Shown: positions 5,941-16,277 of the stretch, one piece after another
Numbering within the stretch: the first letter of the stretch is position 1
Layout of the letters: each line of letters begins with the position of its first letter
Assembly: GCF_006517255.1 (NCBI RefSeq)
Contig: NZ_CP041185.1
Coordinates: 2,046,001 to 2,110,000 of the forward strand
Reading direction: 5' to 3'
From: Janthinobacterium tructae
Lineage (GTDB): Bacteria > Pseudomonadota > Gammaproteobacteria > Burkholderiales > Burkholderiaceae_D
Length of the DNA stretch: 64,000 nucleotides
Position numbers and translations under genes: made by a program
Notes under the pieces: generated by a model
What the model was told of the DNA's origin: nothing
Seen by the model: the letters and a program-made list of their open reading frames with translations, nothing else
The model's database searches: none

Positions 5941-6927
5941 ATGAACGAGAACAAGGACCAGTCCGCCGGTCACTTGCAGCGCACGATACAGCAGGAGCAG
6001 GATCAGGACGACAAGCTGCACGATGCCGCCAAAGCCGGCAAGGAAAGCAAGCAGCCCGTGCAGACGGGCCACCGCAGCCAGCCTGTCCCGCCCCTGCCCG
6101 CCCAGCACCTGACCAAGCCCGGCAGCGAAGCGCAGATGTCGTTGAAACCCCGCTTCCTGGCGCCCGATTACTGCGGCAGCGGCAAGCTGGCCGGCATGGT
6201 GGCCATCATCACGGGCGGCGATTCGGGCATCGGCCGCGCCGTGGCCGTGCTGTATGCGCGCGAAGGGGCCGATGTCGTCATCATTTACCTGAACGAGCAC
6301 GCAGACGCCAGCGAAACGAAGCGCTATGTGGAAGCGGAAGGCCAGAGCTGCCTGTTGATACCCGGCGACGTGCGCGAGCAGGGCTTTTGCCAGCAAGCCG
6401 TCAACCAGGTGCTGGAAAGGTTCACGCACATCGACATACTGGTCAACAACGCCGCCTTCCAGGAACACGCGGAGTCCTTGCTGGACCTGAGCGAGGAACG
6501 CTTCGACCTCACCATGAAAACCAATGTCTACGGTTACTTTCACATGGCCAAGGCCGTGTTGCCCCATTTGCAGCGCGGTGCATCCATCATCAACACGGGG
6601 TCTGTGACGGGTTTGCACGGTTCCAGGCACTTGCTCGATTATTCCACCACCAAGGGCGCCATCCATGCGTTCACCATGGCGCTGGCCGGCAATCTGCTCG
6701 ACAAGGGCATCCGCGTCAACGCCATCGCACCGGGGCCCGTCTGGACGCCGCTCAACCCGGCCGACAAGTCGCCCGAGGACATCGCGAAATTCGGCGCCGA
6801 CACGGACATGCGCCGCCCGGCCCAGCCCGAGGAACTATCGCCCGCCTACGTCTTCCTGGCCTCGCCCGCCTGTTCCAGCTACATCACGGGCATCATCCTG
6901 CCCGTCACCGGCAGCGTGGGGAACTAG
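5941..6927 (+). CDS. SDR family oxidoreductase (YghA-like)
   Basis: A 328-residue NAD(P)-dependent short-chain dehydrogenase. A ~75-residue polar N-terminal extension precedes the Rossmann motif TGGDSGIGRA, then NNAA, the catalytic Ser region (NTGSVTG) and YSTTKGA (Tyr and Lys of YxxxK). The GDSGIGRA variant and the long extension are typical of the YghA-like, stress-induced SDR subgroup. The start at 5941 is preceded by GGAGG with good spacing. The ku gene follows 3 bases after the stop, so the two are probably co-transcribed. Substrate unknown. Confidence 0.88.
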   Translation: MNENKDQSAGHLQRTIQQEQDQDDKLHDAAKAGKESKQPVQTGHRSQPVPPLPAQHLTKPGSEAQMSLKPRFLAPDYCGSGKLAGMVAIITGGDSGIGRAVAVLYAREGADVVIIYLNEHADASETKRYVEAEGQSCLLIPGDVREQGFCQQAVNQVLERFTHIDILVNNAAFQEHAESLLDLSEERFDLTMKTNVYGYFHMAKAVLPHLQRGASIINTGSVTGLHGSRHLLDYSTTKGAIHAFTMALAGNLLDKGIRVNAIAPGPVWTPLNPADKSPEDIAKFGADTDMRRPAQPEELSPAYVFLASPACSSYITGIILPVTGSVGN

Positions 6928-6930
6928 GCC

Positions 6931-7806
6931 ATGGCGCGCGCACTATGGAGAGGCGCCATCAGCTTTGGCCTCGTGCACATCCCCGTCGAGCTGATTTCAG
7001 CCAGCCTCGACCATGAATTGGACCTGTCCATGCTGGACCGGCGCGACTTCGCGCCCATCGGCTACAAGCGCTACAACAAGCGCACGGGCAAGGAAGTCGA
7101 GTGGGACGACATCATCAAGGGCTATGAATACAAGGCGGATGAGTACGTGGTGCTGTCCGAAGAAGACTTGAAACAGGCGAATGTGAAGGCCACGCAAACC
7201 ATCGCCATCGACACCTTTGTCGATGCGGTCGAGGTGCCGCTGACCTTTTATGCACACCCGTATTACCTGCTGCCCGCCAAGGGCGGCGAGAAAGTCTATG
7301 CGCTGCTGCGCGAAACCTTGCGCAAGGTCGATAAAGTGGCTATCGCCAGCATAGTCATGCGCACCAAGCAGCATTTGTGCGCGCTCGTCTGCGTCGGCGA
7401 CGCCATCGTGCTCAACACCCTGCGCTACGCCGATGAGCTGCGCCCCACGGAGGACCTGGACTTGCCCGGCAGTACCCTGAAGGCGGCGGGCATTACCGAC
7501 AAGGAACTCAAGATGGCCCTGTCGCTGGTGGAAGGCATGAGCGAAACGTGGCACCCCGGGCAATACCACGACAGCTACCGCGAGGACGTGCTGGCGCTGG
7601 TCAAGAAGAAAATCAAGGCGAAACAGACCAAGACCATCACCGCGCCCGCGCCGGAACCGCAAGAAGAGCACGGCAGCAACGTGATCGACCTGGTCGCCCT
7701 GCTGCAGCAAAGTCTGGGCAAGAAGGCGCCCGCCGTGCCCGCCCGCAAGCGCGCGGCCTCGTCCACCTCCCGGAATCCGCCGCCAGCCAGACGCAAGACG
7801 GCCTGA
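6931..7806 (+). CDS. ku: Non-homologous end-joining protein Ku
   Basis: A 291-residue homologue of bacterial Ku, which forms a homodimer ring on double-strand DNA ends and recruits LigD. The N-terminus MARALWRGAISFGLVHIPVEL is diagnostic, followed by the beta-barrel core (HPYYLLPAKGGEKVYALLRE) and a basic, Pro/Ala-rich C-terminal tail (residues ~255-291, ending PPPARRKTA) that probably binds DNA non-specifically. It sits directly behind the SDR gene. ligD lies 2.4 kb away on the opposite strand, beyond a hybrid kinase, so the NHEJ pair is split into two transcription units. Confidence 0.95.
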   Translation: MARALWRGAISFGLVHIPVELISASLDHELDLSMLDRRDFAPIGYKRYNKRTGKEVEWDDIIKGYEYKADEYVVLSEEDLKQANVKATQTIAIDTFVDAVEVPLTFYAHPYYLLPAKGGEKVYALLRETLRKVDKVAIASIVMRTKQHLCALVCVGDAIVLNTLRYADELRPTEDLDLPGSTLKAAGITDKELKMALSLVEGMSETWHPGQYHDSYREDVLALVKKKIKAKQTKTITAPAPEPQEEHGSNVIDLVALLQQSLGKKAPAVPARKRAASSTSRNPPPARRKTA

Positions 7807-10240: not shown

Positions 10241-12713
10241 AACCCAGTTTCTGCATGGCCCCATCGATGCCCCTGGCGCTGCGCGCATAGCCGGCCCAGG
10301 GCGCATTGCCCACGTCGAGGCGGCTGTGGACGTTGCTCACCGTCCATTGATCGCCCGCCTTCAGTTTGTCGAGCTCTTCCCAGGCCAGCGGCACGGAAAT
10401 GCCCAGCCCGGAGCGCGTGCGGGCCGACCATGCGCACACGGTGGTGGCGCCCCGTCCGTTGCGCAAATAGTCGATGAAGATCTTGCCGACGCGGTTGGCG
10501 GGACCGCTCTTGACGACAAAACGCGCCGGTATCTGCTGCGCCATGTGCGCCACGATGGCTTGCGAAAACGCCTTGACCGTGTCCCAGTCGTATTTCGGGC
10601 GGATCGGCACGACCACATGCAAGCCCTTGCCGCCGCTGGTTTTCAGCCAGGCGGGCAGCCCCAGCTCCGTCAGGAAGGCGCGCAACAGCATGGCCGCTTC
10701 GCGGATGGCGGGCCAGGCCACGCCCTTGCCCGGATCCAGGTCGAACACCATACGGTTCGGCGTGTCGTAGGCGCTGGCCAGCGCGTTTTGCGTGTGAAAC
10801 TCCACCACATTCCACTGCGCCGCCGACAACAGACCCTGTACGCTGGCAACTTCCAGCATGGCGGCATGCTCGGGATCGAGGCCGGGATCGAGTTGTTTGA
10901 CACCCGGCATGGTCGCGGTATCGGCATGCTTCTGGAAAAACAGCTCACCGCCCACGCCGGCCGGCGCGCGCACCAGCGACACGGGCCGGCCCCGCAAGTG
11001 CACGAGCATCAGCTTGCCCACCAACGCGTAATAGCGCACCAGATCGATCTTGCGCGCGCCGCTGTCCTTGTCGATCACCCGGTCTGCATGGCTGACCTTG
11101 AAACTGGCCGGCAAGACGCTGTCCGGCGTGGCTTGCTTCTGCATCGTCGTCTCCCTGTCGATCCGCTGTGCCCGCTCGCGCACGATGGCGGCCGGTTTTT
11201 TATCTTCGCGCAAACCGTGAAACACGGCATGGCGCACGGCACCGCTACTGGTCCATTGCGCAAAGCCGACCTCGGCCACCAGTTGCGGCTTGACCCAGAT
11301 GGGCCGGCGCAAGCCGCCCGCCTTGCCCGCAAACGGACTCGTATCAATGGTGAGTGCGTCGAGGCGGCGGCGCAAGTCGCGCAAGGCGGCATCATCAAAG
11401 CCGCTGCCCACATTGCCCGCGTAGCGCAGCTTGCCCTGCGCATCGTGCACGCCCAGCAGCAGCGAACCGATGCCTTCACGCGCGCCCTGCGGCGCCGTAT
11501 AGCCGCCGATGACGAATTCCTGGCGCAGCCCGCATTTAAGCTTGATCCAGTCGCCGGAACGCCGCGTAACGTAGGGCGAGCCGCGCCGCTTGCCGATCAC
11601 CCCTTCCAGCCCCAGGCGGCAAGCATGGGCCAGCAACTGCTGCGGCGCAGCATCGAGCGCCTCGCTGAAACGCACCAGCGGCGAGGCGGGCGATTGTTCC
11701 AGCAGCCCCTGCAGCAGAGCCCTGCGCGCCTCGACGCTCTGGCTCCGCACATCGTGGCCATCGAAATATGCCACGTCGAACAGGTAATACACGATGGCGC
11801 TGGTCGTTTGCGCATCGAACGCGCGCTGCAAGGCACCGAAGTCAGGGTGACCGCTGGCATCGTTGACGACGATTTCACCGTCATACCAGCCTGGCGGCAA
11901 GCCCATCTGTTCCAGCGCCTGCCGCAGCTTCGGCAGTTTCGCCGTCCAGTCATTGCCATTGCGCGTCATCAGGCTGACCTGTTCGCCATCGCAACGTGCA
12001 AGGATGCGATAGCCGTCAAATTTCGCCTCGAAGATCCAGTCTTGCGCATCTGGCGGCGGCGTATCGACGAGGGTGGCCAGCTGGGGCGACAGGGTGGCGG
12101 GTAAATCGGCATCCGGCGGCGCGGCAGCCACCTTGCGCCTGGGCAGGGCCTTGTTCCTGACGCTGTCGGGGAATTCGTCCACGACAGAAAATTCCAGTGC
12201 CGGCCGGGCAAACGCGTCTTTTTCCTTGATCAGCAGCCAGGCCGGCTGCTTTTCGCTGCGCTTATCTCCTTTGCCCTTCATGCGCACCAGCACCCAGTTG
12301 CCCTGCATCTTGTGGCCATGCAGGGTGAATTTCAGTTCGCCGGCCGCCAGCGCGGCGCGTGCGTCCGGCGTGGCCGCCTGCGCTTGCCATCTGCCCTTGT
12401 CCCAGATGATGACCTTGCCCGCGCCATACTGTTTTTCCGGGATCGTGCCTTCAAAACTGGCGTAGGCCAGGGGATGGTCTTCCACCTGCACCGCCATGCG
12501 CTTGTCGCGCGGGTCGTAGCTGGGCCCTTTCGGCACGGCCCAGCTTTTCAGCGTGCCATCGAGTTCCAGGCGAAAATCATAGTGCAAACGGCTGGCCCAG
12601 TGCTTCTGGATGACGAAGGTGAGCACCTCGCCCGCGTCCTCGCCGCCACCTGCCGGCTCGGGCGTGACGGCGAAATTGCGCTTGGCTTGATAGGTTTTCA
12701 AGGCGGCTTTCAT
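10224..12713 (-). CDS. ligD: Multifunctional ATP-dependent DNA ligase LigD
   Basis: An 829-residue three-module NHEJ ligase. The N-terminal 3'-phosphoesterase has [16 protein letters not shown] and [10 protein letters not shown]. The central ATP-dependent ligase has EAKFDGYR with the adenylated Lys. The C-terminal polymerase/primase has FDLDPG and SGGKGLHV. The PE-LIG-POL order is that of Pseudomonas LigD. With Ku it joins broken DNA ends. I chose ATG 12713 ([14 protein letters not shown], the usual family start); ATG 12740 would add nine residues. Neither has a strong ribosome site. The gene is convergent with, and overlaps, the hybrid kinase. Confidence 0.95.
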
Positions 12714-12804
12714 GGCGGACCCATGCGGTGAGGATGGCATCGAGTCTAGGCCGCCGCTTGGCGTAGCGCGGTACGCCAGCTAACAGAGTGCCTGCCCGGG
12801 CAAA

Positions 12805-12819
12805 TGTAAGTGTTTGTAA
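12805..12819 (+). promoter_or_regulatory. TGTAA-N5-TGTAA box, promoter 1 of the Asr-like array
   Basis: A direct repeat TGTAA-GTGTT-TGTAA. Two more copies with the same 5-bp spacing precede the genes at 13466 and 14987. Direct pentamers at 10-bp pitch are the usual target of OmpR/PhoB-type response regulators. Here the box lies 15 bp upstream of the shared GTCAAC element, against 5 bp in the other two promoters, a difference of one helical turn. Confidence 0.6.
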
Positions 12820-12925
12820 TTACCCAAAAAACCTGTCAACGGTATTGCCGCACGGCGCGTTTTTGGCTCAGTGACAGGGGAAATGCATCTCCTGAACTAC
12901 AACCCACTTCTCGAGGAACTGCACC

Positions 12926-13243
12926 ATGAAAAAAGTAATCGCTACTCTGATCGCCGGCTTGTTCGCTACCGCAGCCTTTGCTCAAACCCCAGCACCAGCA
13001 GCGCCGGCCAAGGCCGAAGCCAAGCACACCAAGGAAGTGGCCAAAGCAGAAGCAAAAGAAACCAAGGCCGTCGTGAAAGCCGATGCGAAAGAAGCCGTCG
13101 TCGCTGCAGACGCCAAAGCCGATGTCGCCAGCGCCAAGGCTGACGCGAAAGCCACCAAGGCCAAAGCCCATCACAAAGCGAAAAAAGCCAAGGCCAAGGC
13201 TGACGAAGCCAAAACTGAAGCGACCGCAGCAGCAGCCAAATAA
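12926..13243 (+). CDS. Exported Lys/Ala-rich Asr/LEA-like protein, paralog A
   Basis: A 105-residue protein. Signal peptide MKKVIATLIAGLFATAAFAQ is followed by an ~85-residue mature part built almost only from Ala, Lys, Glu, Asp, Val and Thr, with no Cys, Trp, Tyr or Phe. Eleven-residue repeats of the type VVKADAKEAxx recur, as in LEA group 3 proteins, and a KAHHKAKK element resembles enterobacterial acid-shock protein Asr. The product is probably a periplasmic, disordered or conditionally helical protector. It is monocistronic, ending in a strong terminator at 13272. Close paralogs lie at 13466, 13855 and 14987, with a more divergent one at 15389. Function is inferred. Confidence 0.7.
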   Translation: MKKVIATLIAGLFATAAFAQTPAPAAPAKAEAKHTKEVAKAEAKETKAVVKADAKEAVVAADAKADVASAKADAKATKAKAHHKAKKAKAKADEAKTEATAAAAK

Positions 13244-13271
13244 TCAGTTCCGCGCGTTTTCCACGCCACTC

Positions 13272-13298
13272 AAAAAGACAGCTTCGGCTGTCTTTTTT
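13272..13298 (+). terminator. Rho-independent terminator after paralog A
   Basis: Stem AAAAAGACAGC with a TTCG tetraloop and GCTGTCTTTTT, ending in a T run. It ends the first array unit. Confidence 0.9.
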
Positions 13299-13345
13299 CA
13301 TTTTCACCACCACATCATGCAGCAACGTCTTTTAAAACACCTGAT

Positions 13346-13465
13346 TGTAAGAAAGTGTAAACAAGGTCAACGGCAACCTTCCGGGGCGCGTTTTATGCTC
13401 AGTGAGACGGGAATCATCCCGCCACCAACAGACATACCAGACAAACCACCACTGAGGACTGCACC
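13346..13465 (+). repeat. Duplicated promoter/5'UTR module, copy 1
   Basis: About 120 bp ahead of paralog B closely match 14867-14986 ahead of paralog D. The order is TGTAA-GAAAG-TGTAA box (13346-13360), GTCAAC, GCGCG, a -10-like TATGCT (13394-13399), CTCAGTGA, a small 5'UTR hairpin CGGGA-ATCA-TCCCG (13408-13421), a CCACCAACAGACATACCAG segment and the ribosome site. The box lies about 33 bp upstream of the -10, a typical activator position. Confidence 0.8.
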
Positions 13466-13813
13466 ATGAAAAAAGCAATTGTTACCCTGATCGCCGGCCT
13501 GTTCGCTACCGCTGCCTTTGCCCAAACGCCTGCAGCCCCAGCAGCGCCCGCCAAAGTGGAAGCGGCCCACACCAAGGCTGTCGTGAAAGCCGACGCCAAG
13601 GAAGCGCAAGCCGTCGTGAAAGCCGATGCCAAAGAAGCGAAAGCCGTCGTCGCCGCCAAGACGGAAGTGGCCAGCGCCAAAACGGAAGCAACGGTCACCA
13701 AAGCCAAGGCGCATCACAAAGCCAAGCACACCAAGGCCAAGGCCGATGCAAAACTGGCTTCGGCCACCGCTGCAGCACCTACACCTGTTCCAGCACCAGC
13801 AGTAGCCAAGTAA
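13466..13813 (+). CDS. Exported Lys/Ala-rich Asr/LEA-like protein, paralog B
   Basis: A 115-residue protein with signal peptide MKKAIVTLIAGLFATAAFAQ. The mature part carries two perfectly phased 11-mers (AVVKADAKEAQ, AVVKADAKEAK), then AVVAAKTEVAS, a KAKAHHKAKH element and an Ala/Pro tail (PTPVPAPAVAK). It is closest to paralog D at 14987 in both protein and upstream DNA, so a segmental duplication made the pair. It is the first gene of a bicistron; paralog C begins 41 bp after its stop. The start is set by the signal peptide. Role inferred as periplasmic stress protection. Confidence 0.7.
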   Translation: MKKAIVTLIAGLFATAAFAQTPAAPAAPAKVEAAHTKAVVKADAKEAQAVVKADAKEAKAVVAAKTEVASAKTEATVTKAKAHHKAKHTKAKADAKLASATAAAPTPVPAPAVAK

Positions 13814-13854
13814 TCATCGACACACCATCACTTACCACTCGCCAGGAAAATAAA

Positions 13855-14187
13855 ATGAAAAAAGTTATCGCCACCCTCGTCGCCAGCCTGTTCGCTACCG
13901 CAGCCTTCGCCCAAACCCCTGCCGCCCCGGCAGCCTCGGCTCCGGCCAAGGCGGAAGCGGCCCACACGAAAGCCGTGGCCAAGGCAGAAGCCAAGGAAAC
14001 CAAGGCAGTCGTGAAAGCCGACGCGAAAGAAGCGGTTGTCGCCGCCGATGCGAAAGCCGATGTCGCCAGCGCCAAGGCCGATGCCAAAGCCACCAAGGCC
14101 AAGGCCCACCACAAGGCCAGCAAAGCCAAAGTGAAAGCGGATGCCACCAAAGCAGACGCAGCAGTTGCTGCCACACCGGCAAAGTAA
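13855..14187 (+). CDS. Exported Lys/Ala-rich Asr/LEA-like protein, paralog C
   Basis: A 110-residue protein with signal peptide MKKVIATLVASLFATAAFAQ. Its central repeat block, from TKAVVKADAKEAVVAADAK to the KAHHKA element, nearly equals that of paralog A rather than of its operon partner B. The array therefore contains two alternating subtypes. The mature chain is Lys/Ala-rich and lacks aromatic residues. It is the second gene of the B-C bicistron and is followed by the terminator at 14258. Confidence 0.7.
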   Translation: MKKVIATLVASLFATAAFAQTPAAPAASAPAKAEAAHTKAVAKAEAKETKAVVKADAKEAVVAADAKADVASAKADAKATKAKAHHKASKAKVKADATKADAAVAATPAK

Positions 14188-14257
14188 GCACGAACATCGT
14201 CACGGGAGCGCGTCCGCCGGGTCTGCGCTAACGTGGCCACTTCGCCTGCACTACCAG

Positions 14258-14280
14258 GGACAGCTTCGGCTGTCCTTTTT
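14258..14280 (+). terminator. Rho-independent terminator after paralog C
   Basis: GGACAGC-TTCG-GCTGTCC followed by five T. It has the same TTCG loop and core as the terminator at 13272, consistent with duplication of whole units. Confidence 0.88.
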
Positions 14281-14397
14281 GCATGTGGCCTCTTGCACTG
14301 CGCCTTCATGCAAACCTCATCGAACAGGCCAGCTTGCGCGCGACAAAGCAACGCACATGAGGGACACCGCTCCGACTATTGCCACGAAGCCCAGCCC

Positions 14398-14871
14398 ATG
14401 CGCCACCTGCCCTTGCTCCTGATTGCCGCCCTGTGCCTGTCTTGCGCCGCCAGCACGCAAGACACCCCCGCCACTCTGGAGCAAGCCCTGCAAGCCCAGG
14501 ACGGCGACAGCCATGGCGACTTGCGCGCCGTCGTCGTGCTGCGCGAGGGCGCCATCGTCGCCGAACGCTATTACAACGGCGAGACGGCCGACGCCCTGCA
14601 CGACATCCGTTCGGCAGGCAAGAGCATCACCGCGCTGCTGCTGGGCGCGGCAATGGCGCGGGGCCAGTTGTCGACAACAAAAACGGTGGGCGAGTATTGG
14701 CCCGAAGTGGCTGGCAGCCCTGCGGGCAATGGCGGCAACAAGATCTATGTGATACCGGCGCGCCGCATGGTGATCAGCATCGCATCGAGCGCGTATGGCA
14801 AGGGTTATGGGCAGCGCCGTTCGGAAGACATCCTCAAAGCCATCCTGAAGGCGGATGCAACGCAGATGTAA
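14398..14871 (+). pseudogene. Serine hydrolase (class C beta-lactamase family) with internal deletion
   Basis: The 157-codon frame starts with a lipoprotein-like signal (LLLIAALCLSCAAS) and keeps the catalytic S-A-G-K motif (SxxK, residues 72-75). It then jumps from VGEYWPEVAGSPAG directly to NGGNKIYVIPARRMVISI, which normally lies near the C-terminus. The central region with the Tyr-x-Asn motif, roughly 200 residues in typical members, is missing while the frame stays open. The product should be inactive. The third TGTAA box of the array (14867-14881) overlaps its stop codon, so the gene has been trimmed and embedded between duplicated array units. Confidence 0.75.
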
Positions 14872-14986
14872 GCGTTTGTAATGACCGTCAACGCAAGCGT
14901 CCGGGGGCGCGTTTTATGCTCAGTGACACGGGAATCATCCCGGCACCAACAGACATACCAGACAAACCACCACCGAGGACTGCACC
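14867..14986 (+). repeat. Duplicated promoter/5'UTR module, copy 2
   Basis: Closely matches 13346-13465: TGTAA-GCGTT-TGTAA box (14867-14881), 5 bp to GTCAAC, GCGCG, TATGCT, CTCAGTGA, hairpin CGGGA-ATCA-TCCCG (14929-14942) and the same leader up to the start codon. The first TGTAA includes the TAA stop of the truncated hydrolase. Confidence 0.8.
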
Positions 14987-15346
14987 ATGAAAAAAGTAAT
15001 TGCTACCCTGATCGCCGGCCTGTTCGCAACCGCTGCCTTCGCTCAAACGCCCGCAGCTCCGGCAGCGCATGCTACCGCAGCAGCCTCGGTTCCCGCCAAA
15101 GTGGAAGCGGCCCATACCAAGGCTGTCGTGAAAGCGGACGCCAAGGAAGCGCAAACGGTCGTCAAAGCGGATGCAAAAGAAGCGAAAGCAGTCGTCGCCG
15201 CCAAAACGGACGTTGCCAGCGCCAAAGCGGAAGCAGCCACCACGAAAGCCAAGGCCCATCACAAAGCCAAGAAAACCAAAGCCCAGGCTGACGAAAAGCT
15301 GGCATCGGCCACCGCCGCTGCACCAGCTCCGGCTCCTGCCAAGTAA
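14987..15346 (+). CDS. Exported Lys/Ala-rich Asr/LEA-like protein, paralog D
   Basis: A 119-residue protein with signal peptide MKKVIATLIAGLFATAAFAQ, nearly the same repeat core as paralog B (AVVKADAKEAQTVVKADAKEA) and the KAKAHHKAKK element, ending in an Ala/Pro tail. Its promoter module duplicates that of B. It is the first gene of the D-E bicistron; E begins 42 bp downstream. The product is expected to be periplasmic, basic and without aromatic residues in the mature part. Function inferred from resemblance to Asr and LEA-type proteins. Confidence 0.7.
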   Translation: MKKVIATLIAGLFATAAFAQTPAAPAAHATAAASVPAKVEAAHTKAVVKADAKEAQTVVKADAKEAKAVVAAKTDVASAKAEAATTKAKAHHKAKKTKAQADEKLASATAAAPAPAPAK

Positions 15347-15388
15347 TTCCGACACACCTGACTGACCACATATACCAAGGATCTTAAA

Positions 15389-15652
15389 ATGAAAAAAGTT
15401 ATCGCCACCCTGATCGCCAGCCTGTTCGCCACCGCCGCTTTCGCCCAGACGCCAGCCGTCGCGCCAGTCGCGCCAGTAGCACCGATTCCTGTCGTCGCCC
15501 CAGTCGTCAAGGCCGAAGCACCGGCAGCAGCCGTCAAGCCGGCTGCGCACAAGAAAGCCAAGCATCACAAGGCAAAGAAAGCCGCGCCGGCCGACAAGGC
15601 AGCGCCTGCGGAACCAGCAGTACCGGCAACGCCAGCTGCGCCAGCCAAGTAA
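15389..15652 (+). CDS. Exported Pro/Ala/Lys-rich Asr-like protein, paralog E
   Basis: An 87-residue protein with the family signal peptide (MKKVIATLIASLFATAAFAQ) but a distinct mature part: Pro/Val/Ala repeats (VAPVAPVAPIPVVAPVV), a basic centre HKKAKHHKAKKAAP very like acid-shock protein Asr, and a Pro/Ala tail. It lacks the 11-mer repeats of the other four. It ends the D-E unit before the terminator at 15670. The signal peptide shared with otherwise different mature regions suggests these genes diversified by swapping their 3' parts. Confidence 0.7.
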   Translation: MKKVIATLIASLFATAAFAQTPAVAPVAPVAPIPVVAPVVKAEAPAAAVKPAAHKKAKHHKAKKAAPADKAAPAEPAVPATPAAPAK

Positions 15653-15669
15653 TCGCGGCTGTACCAGCC

Positions 15670-15700
15670 AAAAAGACAGGGGTTACCCTGTCTTTTTTTT
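15670..15700 (+). terminator. Rho-independent terminator after paralog E
   Basis: Stem AAAAAGACAGGG / CCCTGTC with a GTTA loop and a run of eight T. It also separates the array from the convergent fasciclin gene. Confidence 0.9.
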
Positions 15701-15719
15701 CGTCTGCTTTTTTGTTCGC

Positions 15720-16277
15720 TTATTTCGGCATCAGCACCGTGTCAATGACATTGATCACGCCATTCGACTGGTACACATCATAGGTGCTGATGTTGGCGCT
15801 GTTGCCGCCCTCGTCCATCACGACGATATTGTGCATGCCGTTCATGGCGAACATCAGCTTGCCCCCGCTGGCCGTGGGCAAAGTGGCTTTCCCGTCGTGC
15901 ATCTTGATTTCCCTGGCCAGCGCCTTGAAGTCGTATTTGCCGGGCACAACGTGGTAGGTGAGGATTTTCGTCAGGGTCGCCTTGTTTTCCGGCTTGACCA
16001 GGGTCTCGACGGTGCCGGCCGGCAGTTTGCCAAACGCCGCATTCGTCGGCGCGAACACGGTAAACGGCCCCTTGCCTTTCAGGGTATCGACCAGGCCTGC
16101 CGCCTTGACGGCGGCGACCAGGGTCGTGTGGTCGGCCGAATTGACGGCGTTATCGACGATATCCTTGGACGGATACATGCTCTGCCCCCCCACCATGGTG
16201 CTCATGTCGGCGGCAAAAGGGGCGCTGGCGGCCAGCATGGAAGTGAGGAACAATGCTGCAGGGATGAAGGTGCGCAT
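15720..16277 (-). CDS. Secreted fasciclin (FAS1) domain protein
   Basis: A 185-residue protein. The signal peptide (MRTFIPAALFLTSMLAASAPFAA) is followed by one FAS1 domain with both signature boxes: GPFTVFAPTNAAFGKLP and, at the C-terminus, YQSNGVINVIDTVLMP; ILTYHVVPGKYDF lies between them. Bacterial single-FAS1 proteins are exported and usually linked to adhesion or surface association; the exact role is not known. It is monocistronic, converges on the Asr-like array and is separated from it by the terminator. Confidence 0.92.
   Translation of the reverse strand: MRTFIPAALFLTSMLAASAPFAADMSTMVGGQSMYPSKDIVDNAVNSADHTTLVAAVKAAGLVDTLKGKGPFTVFAPTNAAFGKLPAGTVETLVKPENKATLTKILTYHVVPGKYDFKALAREIKMHDGKATLPTASGGKLMFAMNGMHNIVVMDEGGNSANISTYDVYQSNGVINVIDTVLMPK

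Follow-up and report, generated by a model that had tools for sequence, protein, structure and literature searches.

The window analysed here, a 64,000-nucleotide stretch of the Janthinobacterium tructae genome (6.31 Mb, a single contig), carries an array of five small genes, A to E, which the open reading frame (ORF) list places side by side on the + strand. Gene A (12926-13243) encodes 105 aa, gene B (13466-13813) 115 aa, gene C (13855-14187) 110 aa, gene D (14987-15346) 119 aa and gene E (15389-15652) 87 aa; the mature chains are 86, 96, 91, 100 and 68 aa long, respectively. A first-pass annotation, made from the letters alone, had described a five-gene array of exported Lys/Ala-rich proteins with almost the same signal peptide, and our analysis agrees on both points: the DNA encoding the signal peptides is 82-92% identical between pairs. 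Ala and Lys make up 52-63% of each mature chain, aromatic residues, Cys and Met are absent, and each chain holds 3-4 His. The net charge of the mature proteins is about +7 to +9 at pH 7.5 and +11 to +15 at pH 4.5. An AlphaFold2 model based on 12 sequences placed one helix of low confidence behind the signal peptide and showed no globular fold (predicted local distance difference test score 63, predicted template modelling score 0.32), and A-E are probably disordered.

The genes belong to three subtypes (A with C, B with D, and E, a short Pro/Ala chain with the core KKAKHHKAKKA) arranged in the units A, B-C and D-E, as had been proposed. In a tree of 71 proteins, taken from the window plus 15 loci, group E was supported at 100/100, B+D at 89/77 and A+C at 96/75; the tree rests on few columns, so that the support for B+D and A+C is modest. 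The same order is repeated in sister genomes, one locus (L003) having an additional B-C copy. Units B and D are duplicates, with 82% identity over the 135 bp upstream and 98% over the last 40 bp, and A, B and D are each preceded by promoter elements, in line with the earlier idea of duplicated promoter-gene units. The 11-residue repeats ascribed to all five proteins were found in four of them: self-identity in A-D was highest at lag 11 (z 4.3-5.5 relative to 500 shuffles), whereas E has no 11-mer and its top lag is 6. The array is most likely a five-fold expansion within a protein family whose members are small, exported and polycationic.

Upstream of each unit, on the + strand, lies a promoter of the extracytoplasmic function (ECF) type, GTCAAC-N17-CGTTT, at 12835-12862 for unit A, 13366-13393 for B-C and 14887-14914 for D-E. 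Each is preceded on the same strand by a tandem box of the OmpR family, at 12805-12819 (TGTAAGTGTTTGTAA), 13346-13360 (TGTAAGAAAGTGTAA) and 14867-14881 (TGTAAGCGTTTGTAA), the last overlapping the stop codon of a hydrolase gene. The first-pass annotation had begun the array at 12805, which is the exact first base of the unit A box. The three boxes read TGTAAG-N4-TGTAA, with TGTAA-N5-TGTAA as the general form, and start 20 bp (B and D) or 30 bp (A) upstream of GTCAAC, leaving gaps of 5 and 15 nt; gene C, second in its unit, has no box of its own.

Relatives of A were collected by keeping the best 80 of 97 matches, which gave 73 loci from genera that, by the record titles, we take to be Oxalobacteraceae. 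A regular expression for the signal peptide, run on these loci together with the window, picked up at least 186 family genes in 71 of the 74 sequences, each on the same strand as the match; the expression misses some starts, so that 186 is a lower bound. The box was present at 9-10 of 10 positions within 260 bp upstream of 113 genes. Another 63 genes lacked it and followed a family gene at a distance below 120 bp, and among the other 10 at least four follow a family gene that the expression missed. No gene among the 186 carried a box while following another family gene this closely, pointing to one box per unit. Stray boxes are rare: when both strands of the 74 sequences were scanned with a slightly looser pattern, 117 hits came up, and 116 genes had a hit in the 400 bp before them. 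In 99 of the 113 genes the distance from the start of the box to the ATG is 100-129 bp. All 113 boxed promoters, our discovery set, hold GTCAAC, and 106 of them have CGTTT exactly 17 nt on; the spacer between the two varies in sequence, and TnnGCTCA is conserved as well. GTCAAC follows the box after 5-6 nt in 95 promoters, 14-15 nt in 8 and 25 nt in 10, several of the last showing a second box closer to the promoter.

In the family of the Genome Taxonomy Database (GTDB) to which the organism belongs, a query with A that included the signal peptide gave matches at 1e-5 in 63 of 116 sampled genomes and 24 of 44 genera. The 122 matches were divided into 29 from the same genus and 93 from elsewhere. 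A more distant query across the order at 1e-4 matched 7 of 150 genomes, 4 of them outside the GTDB family. From the 122 matches in the GTDB family we obtained a held-out set, the upstream DNA of 91 further genes (87 other-genus and 4 same-genus genes; a 92nd region was a repeated gene). GTCAAC-N16/17-CGTT occurred in 72 of the 91, with a spacer of 17 in 60 and of 16 in 12, and its first base lay 70-100 bp before the ATG in 67 and 213-221 bp before it in 5. When two proteins already in the discovery set were left out, the count was 70 of 89. All 70 were among the 85 genes of 23 other genera, with at least one in each genus; the four same-genus genes, all of which belong to the type of a sixth paralogue described below, were without the promoter. 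When the 91 were divided post hoc into 'short' and 'long' genes, the promoter preceded 66 of the 70 short and 6 of the 21 long ones. Another three of the 93 other-genus matches gave two genes with the promoter and one, of the long type, without; the last three were not scored, one being the same ORF as another match. In other families of the order the promoter preceded 3 of 5 genes, in three of four genomes. The box was found near 38 of the 72 held-out promoters, and in 34 of the 38 its start lies exactly 20 bp upstream of GTCAAC.

The spacing between the two elements is strict. Following 78 occurrences of GTCAAC in the further genes, CGTT came at a spacer of 16 or 17 in 72 cases and at all other spacers from 8 to 31 in 2. 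Among the control words, CAACTG gave 5 hits, but it overlaps GTCAACTG and is not independent, and four other words gave 2 hits in total. The background of the promoter pattern was 2 hits in 290,542 nt. A search of the whole J. tructae genome (G000) for GTCAAC-N17-CGTTT returned 5 sites, 3 of them within the array, compared with 3 for the reversed-pattern control, so that in this genome the exact pattern is almost confined to the array. The conserved promoter itself is well supported as a sequence element, and it joins an AAC-type -35 to a CGT-type -10 at a fixed distance of 16-17 nt, as ECF promoters do. We did not find the array or its promoter described in the open PubMed Central literature, a search that leaves most subscription papers outside.

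The same elements are reported for SigAb, an ECF sigma factor of Acinetobacter, where mutagenesis defined a -35 of GTCAAC and a -10 of CGTT with a 17-bp spacer, a spacer of 16 being tolerated and one of 18 being about threefold weaker (PMC12153292). The promoters differ in their surroundings: the sections of the SigAb account used here mention no tandem box, whereas the family box is fixed mostly 20 bp before the -35.

We considered whether the region could instead be an ordinary sigma-70 promoter, in which TGTAA, TGTAA and GTCAA would be half-sites repeated every 10 bp, TnnGCT would be the true -10 and no ECF sigma factor would take part. GTCAAC does stand in register, 10 bp after the second TGTAA, in most promoters, and TnnGCTCA, conserved in the discovery set, is partly retained in the 72 further promoters (G 48, C 47, T 30, C 38 and A 41). 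Against this, 34 of the 72 further promoters have GTCAAC-CGTT with no TGTAA box nearby, the 16/17 spacing is strict, the match to the SigAb promoter is exact, and a scan for sigma-70-type sites found none at the three array promoters. We regard the sigma-70 promoter as unlikely and infer that an ECF sigma factor reads these promoters.

As to the regulator at the box, the sites of OmpR, RstA and CpxR likewise consist of two TGTAA or GTAA half-sites 10 bp apart, but the box described here is mostly fixed 20 bp before an ECF-type -35. At its position 6 stands G, C or T; A was absent there from all 151 boxes, two genes being counted twice. The genome encodes an OmpR response regulator (419 bits; NCBIfam OmpR cut-off 331), whose cognate kinase has EnvZ as its best match, below the cut-off. 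The ompR promoter itself has a TGTAAC-N4-TGTAA box, at 10 of 10 positions, in 19 of 19 same-genus genomes. CpxR (L099) was rejected as the main regulator: its own sites, GTAAA-N5-GTAAA in all 13 genomes with a match (14 searched), carry A at position 6. The box appears to fit the OmpR site better than that of CpxR, and OmpR is probably the regulator. An RstA-like response regulator (L126), adjacent to an ORF that we take to be Spy-like, may be another candidate. We also observed a 129-aa exported, probably disordered ORF (L125:3235-3624, - strand, on G000:C1) divergent from ompR, with the box between the two; no NCBIfam or Pfam match is listed for it. A possible further box target is a small ORF in G033, G037 and G038, just before which TGTAAGATGATGTAA occurs (L160, L161 and L177, about 1501-1515); the word is also present in G044.

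SigAb is described as Acinetobacter-specific, with sigAb, relA and a small RNA as its direct targets (PMC12153292). Because SigAb is limited to its genus, another ECF sigma factor must act here. Two small genomes with promoter-bearing family members, G152 (2.6 Mb) and G050 (2.0 Mb), each gave 6 sigma-r4 matches, two of them to strong ECF factors (E<1e-15). One of the two appears from its sequence to be of the RpoE type and the other to be related to NF006550/PRK09047. The RpoE motif is unlike GTCAAC/CGTT (PMC12153292), which leaves the PRK09047 type as the candidate. In J. tructae this gene is at G000:C1:2430139-2430708 (286 bits against 173), with genes for DUF3619, DUF3106 and RDD proteins downstream. 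By elimination only, the sigma factor reading the promoter would be this PRK09047-type ECF factor with its DUF3619 partner, the latter being a putative anti-sigma factor. A search for GTCAAC-N17-CGTTT through four whole genomes led to no sigma gene.

The family is conserved beyond composition alone, as an alignment of 12 A-D-type sequences has 28 invariant positions. These include K40 A41 A43 K44, repeated 11 residues on as K51 A52 A54 K55, and A81 H82, present in 12 of 12. All 183 scored genus-level chains (the 186 minus 3 with unknown residues) and all 53 held-out chains are net positive. Pfam and NCBIfam gave no above-cut-off match for this exported family, and PF27998 is a precomputed assignment on some homologues. 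Two low matches, one to a Chryseobasin ribosomally synthesized and post-translationally modified peptide (17 bits, cut-off 50) and one of B to DUF4148 (14 bits, cut-off 27), were treated as chance; a relative, P0029, reached 22 bits to DUF4148 across residues 1-41, which are mostly signal peptide. Rfam gave a sole match on 12700-15800, at 20 bits with a gathering score of 229. Clustering of neighbouring genes was dominated by antisense ORFs and yielded no functional neighbour. A sixth, longer paralogue of about 160 aa lies outside the window at G000:C1:3427605-3427880 on the - strand (L090/L320), and neither the box nor the ECF-type promoter was present within 400 bp upstream of it. Genes of this 'long' type are also present in other genera, where most lack the promoter.

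The first-pass annotation had compared the proteins with both the acid-shock protein Asr and late embryogenesis abundant (LEA) proteins, and had suggested profile hidden Markov model searches as a check; A-E matched neither. Group 3 LEA proteins have 11-residue repeats (PMC12871917), and those of A-D are similarly rich in Ala, Lys, Glu and Asp. If the proteins were LEA-like desiccation protectants, their 11-mers would fold into amphipathic helices on drying, a view favoured by lag 11 being the top lag in A-D, by the invariant K/A motifs 11 residues apart and by the helix-prone AlphaFold2 model. However, no LEA profile was among the matches of A-E listed at E<=10, E lacks the 11-mer and the proteins here are exported. 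Moreover, the hydrophobic periodicity of A-D peaks at 162-163 degrees (11/5; moment 0.90-1.09), and the helix-type 11/3 pattern at 98-100 degrees was not seen (moment only 0.07-0.35). The LEA resemblance is therefore the weaker of the two, and we consider the desiccation reading quite unlikely.

Alternatively, the His-Lys patches could make the proteins periplasmic buffers of metal, perhaps copper, or of protons. The AH patch, A81 H82, is invariant in the aligned A-D-type sequences, and SigAb, which uses the same promoter, responds to copper (PMC12153292). Yet 3-4 His per mature chain with no Cys or Met is little for such a role, and His is absent from 14 of 53 held-out promoter-bearing chains, making buffering a rather improbable main function.

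The likeness to Asr is of a different kind. Asr is reported to be an abundant, intrinsically disordered periplasmic chaperone that accounts for about 2% of ribosome reads at pH 4.4 (PMC10746267, citing Ren 2022), and asr is controlled by RstA and PhoB (PMC9026648). Like Asr, the family has a signal peptide, a short Ala/Lys-rich, aromatic-free cationic chain, an HHK patch and a response-regulator box near 104-118 bp before the ATG, the distance at which E. coli asr has its RstA-type box. The RstA consensus is TACATNTNGTTACA (PMC4117788), the opposite strand of which reads TGTAAC-N4-TGTA. Unlike Asr, the family has an ECF-type promoter and, in A-D, 11-mers. The Asr profile PF06392 had no match in the whole genome and none at E<=10 in A-E, and a relative, P0032, reached 15.8 bits (cut-off 24.9). 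In alignments to E. coli Asr, A-D scored no better than shuffles (z -0.8 to 0.7) and E showed a weak resemblance (z 2.1; its score was reached by 35 of 1000 shuffles). The earlier comparison with Asr thus stands for composition and promoter layout and falls for sequence; by the tests made, the family is neither Asr nor LEA. It is very unlikely that these are true Asr proteins, acid-induced through RstA/RstB as in enterobacteria: the signal peptide, the Lys/Ala/His chain, the RstA-like box at a similar distance from the ATG, the weak alignment of E and a 39% RstA homologue in the genome speak for it, but PF06392 is unmatched, A-D align no better than shuffles, no box matching at 9 or more of the 10 positions was found in the promoter of the RstA homologue, and the 300 bp upstream of E. 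coli asr contain a 9/10 near match but no exact GTCAAC-N16/17-CGTT.

We give about an even chance to the explanation that the array encodes exported envelope protectants acting like Asr, under the joint control of an ECF sigma factor and an OmpR-family regulator. RNA polymerase with the ECF sigma factor would read GTCAAC-N16/17-CGTT of the three units, assisted by an OmpR-family regulator, probably OmpR, on the upstream TGTAA-N5-TGTAA. An envelope stress, with acid and osmotic change as first candidates, would fire the three promoters together. The mRNAs would start with a small hairpin and the products would be exported by Sec. The resulting abundant pool of disordered Lys/Ala-rich polycations would shield the anionic outer membrane as well as envelope proteins that are unfolding, in the way proposed for Asr. 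Given their export, charge, likely disorder, copy number and control, the proteins most likely do Asr-like work in the envelope, a view that rests on analogy. The link to envelope stress drawn in the first-pass annotation is supported by the dedicated ECF-type promoter and OmpR-family box before each unit.

Several observations weigh against this explanation. The promoter was absent from 19 of the 91 further genes, mostly of the long type, and with no box near 34 of the 72 further promoters, the regulator cannot serve all of them. Position 6 is C in the site of ompR itself and G in 108 of the 113 genus-level boxes, and the cpxR promoters of J. tructae and of sister genomes do hold a TGTAAG half-site, though no 10-bp tandem. 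Apart from the weak score of E, there is no alignment to Asr beyond composition. E. coli asr (L092) carries ATCAAC-N16-CGTT, a 9/10 near match, 145 bp before the ATG and beside its RstA-type box; it is probably there by chance and shows that such near matches so arise. Its place is not that of the known -35 and -10 of asr. One or both of the two ECF types, the PRK09047 sigma factor included, are also encoded in G057 and G073, two genomes that gave no family match. ECF sigma genes are usually autoregulated, but none of the 30 of 48 sigma-r4 matches examined upstream carries the promoter, and autoregulation was not seen. Two near matches did not change this: one (L234, 9/11) is inside an ORF and unconvincing, and the other (L236, 10/11) was rejected as it is far upstream of the ECF gene, which is followed by an ORF that we take to be FecR-like.

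The remaining features of the locus lie between and around the units. By reading, a hairpin and T run ends each unit, at 13272-13298 after A, 14257-14280 after C and 15670-15700 after E, all on the + strand, as the first-pass annotation had stated. The pattern scan lists those after A and E and not the one after C, and its 8 sites in total are no excess over the 6.7 in shuffles (standard deviation 2.6). Stem-loops are present in the 5' untranslated regions of A (12875-12894), B-C (13408-13421) and D-E (14929-14942), also on the + strand. The tendency to form a hairpin just after the promoter, computed against mononucleotide shuffles, had a mean z of -1.62 in 60 held-out and -1.39 in 66 genus-level leaders, compared with -0.11 in a control stretch (67). 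The hairpin recurs while its sequence changes between genes, and in the array units it is perhaps an mRNA stabiliser. By sight, an inverted repeat resembling the array leaders also precedes the ATG of E. coli asr. The 'truncated hydrolase' between C and D (14398-14871, +) comes from the beta-lactamase family PF00144 and carries an internal deletion: both parts are matched in 13 relatives, mostly with about 540 nt between them that the window copy lacks, and a single ORF (6036-7562) covers both in L011. We regard it as a bystander; longer copies sit near the array in sister genomes. Directly downstream and convergent with the array is a gene for a fasciclin-domain protein (PF02469; 15720-16277, -).

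Six same-genus genomes, including that of J. tructae, have 3-6 matches each, and the selection for dose proposed for the expanded array is plausible on these copy numbers. More broadly, we tentatively suggest, at somewhat less than even chances, that the core regulon of the PRK09047-type ECF sigma factor in Burkholderiales consists of exported cationic disordered proteins, and that in part of the clade it uses composite promoters, with an OmpR site 20 bp before the ECF -35, multiplied by gene amplification. ECF promoters with a fixed upstream two-component site are, to our knowledge, unusual. A large unnamed family of low-complexity exported proteins is tied together by one promoter, which predicts a core regulon for an orphan ECF sigma factor, and Janthinobacterium is an accessible model for possible envelope protection by disordered polycations.

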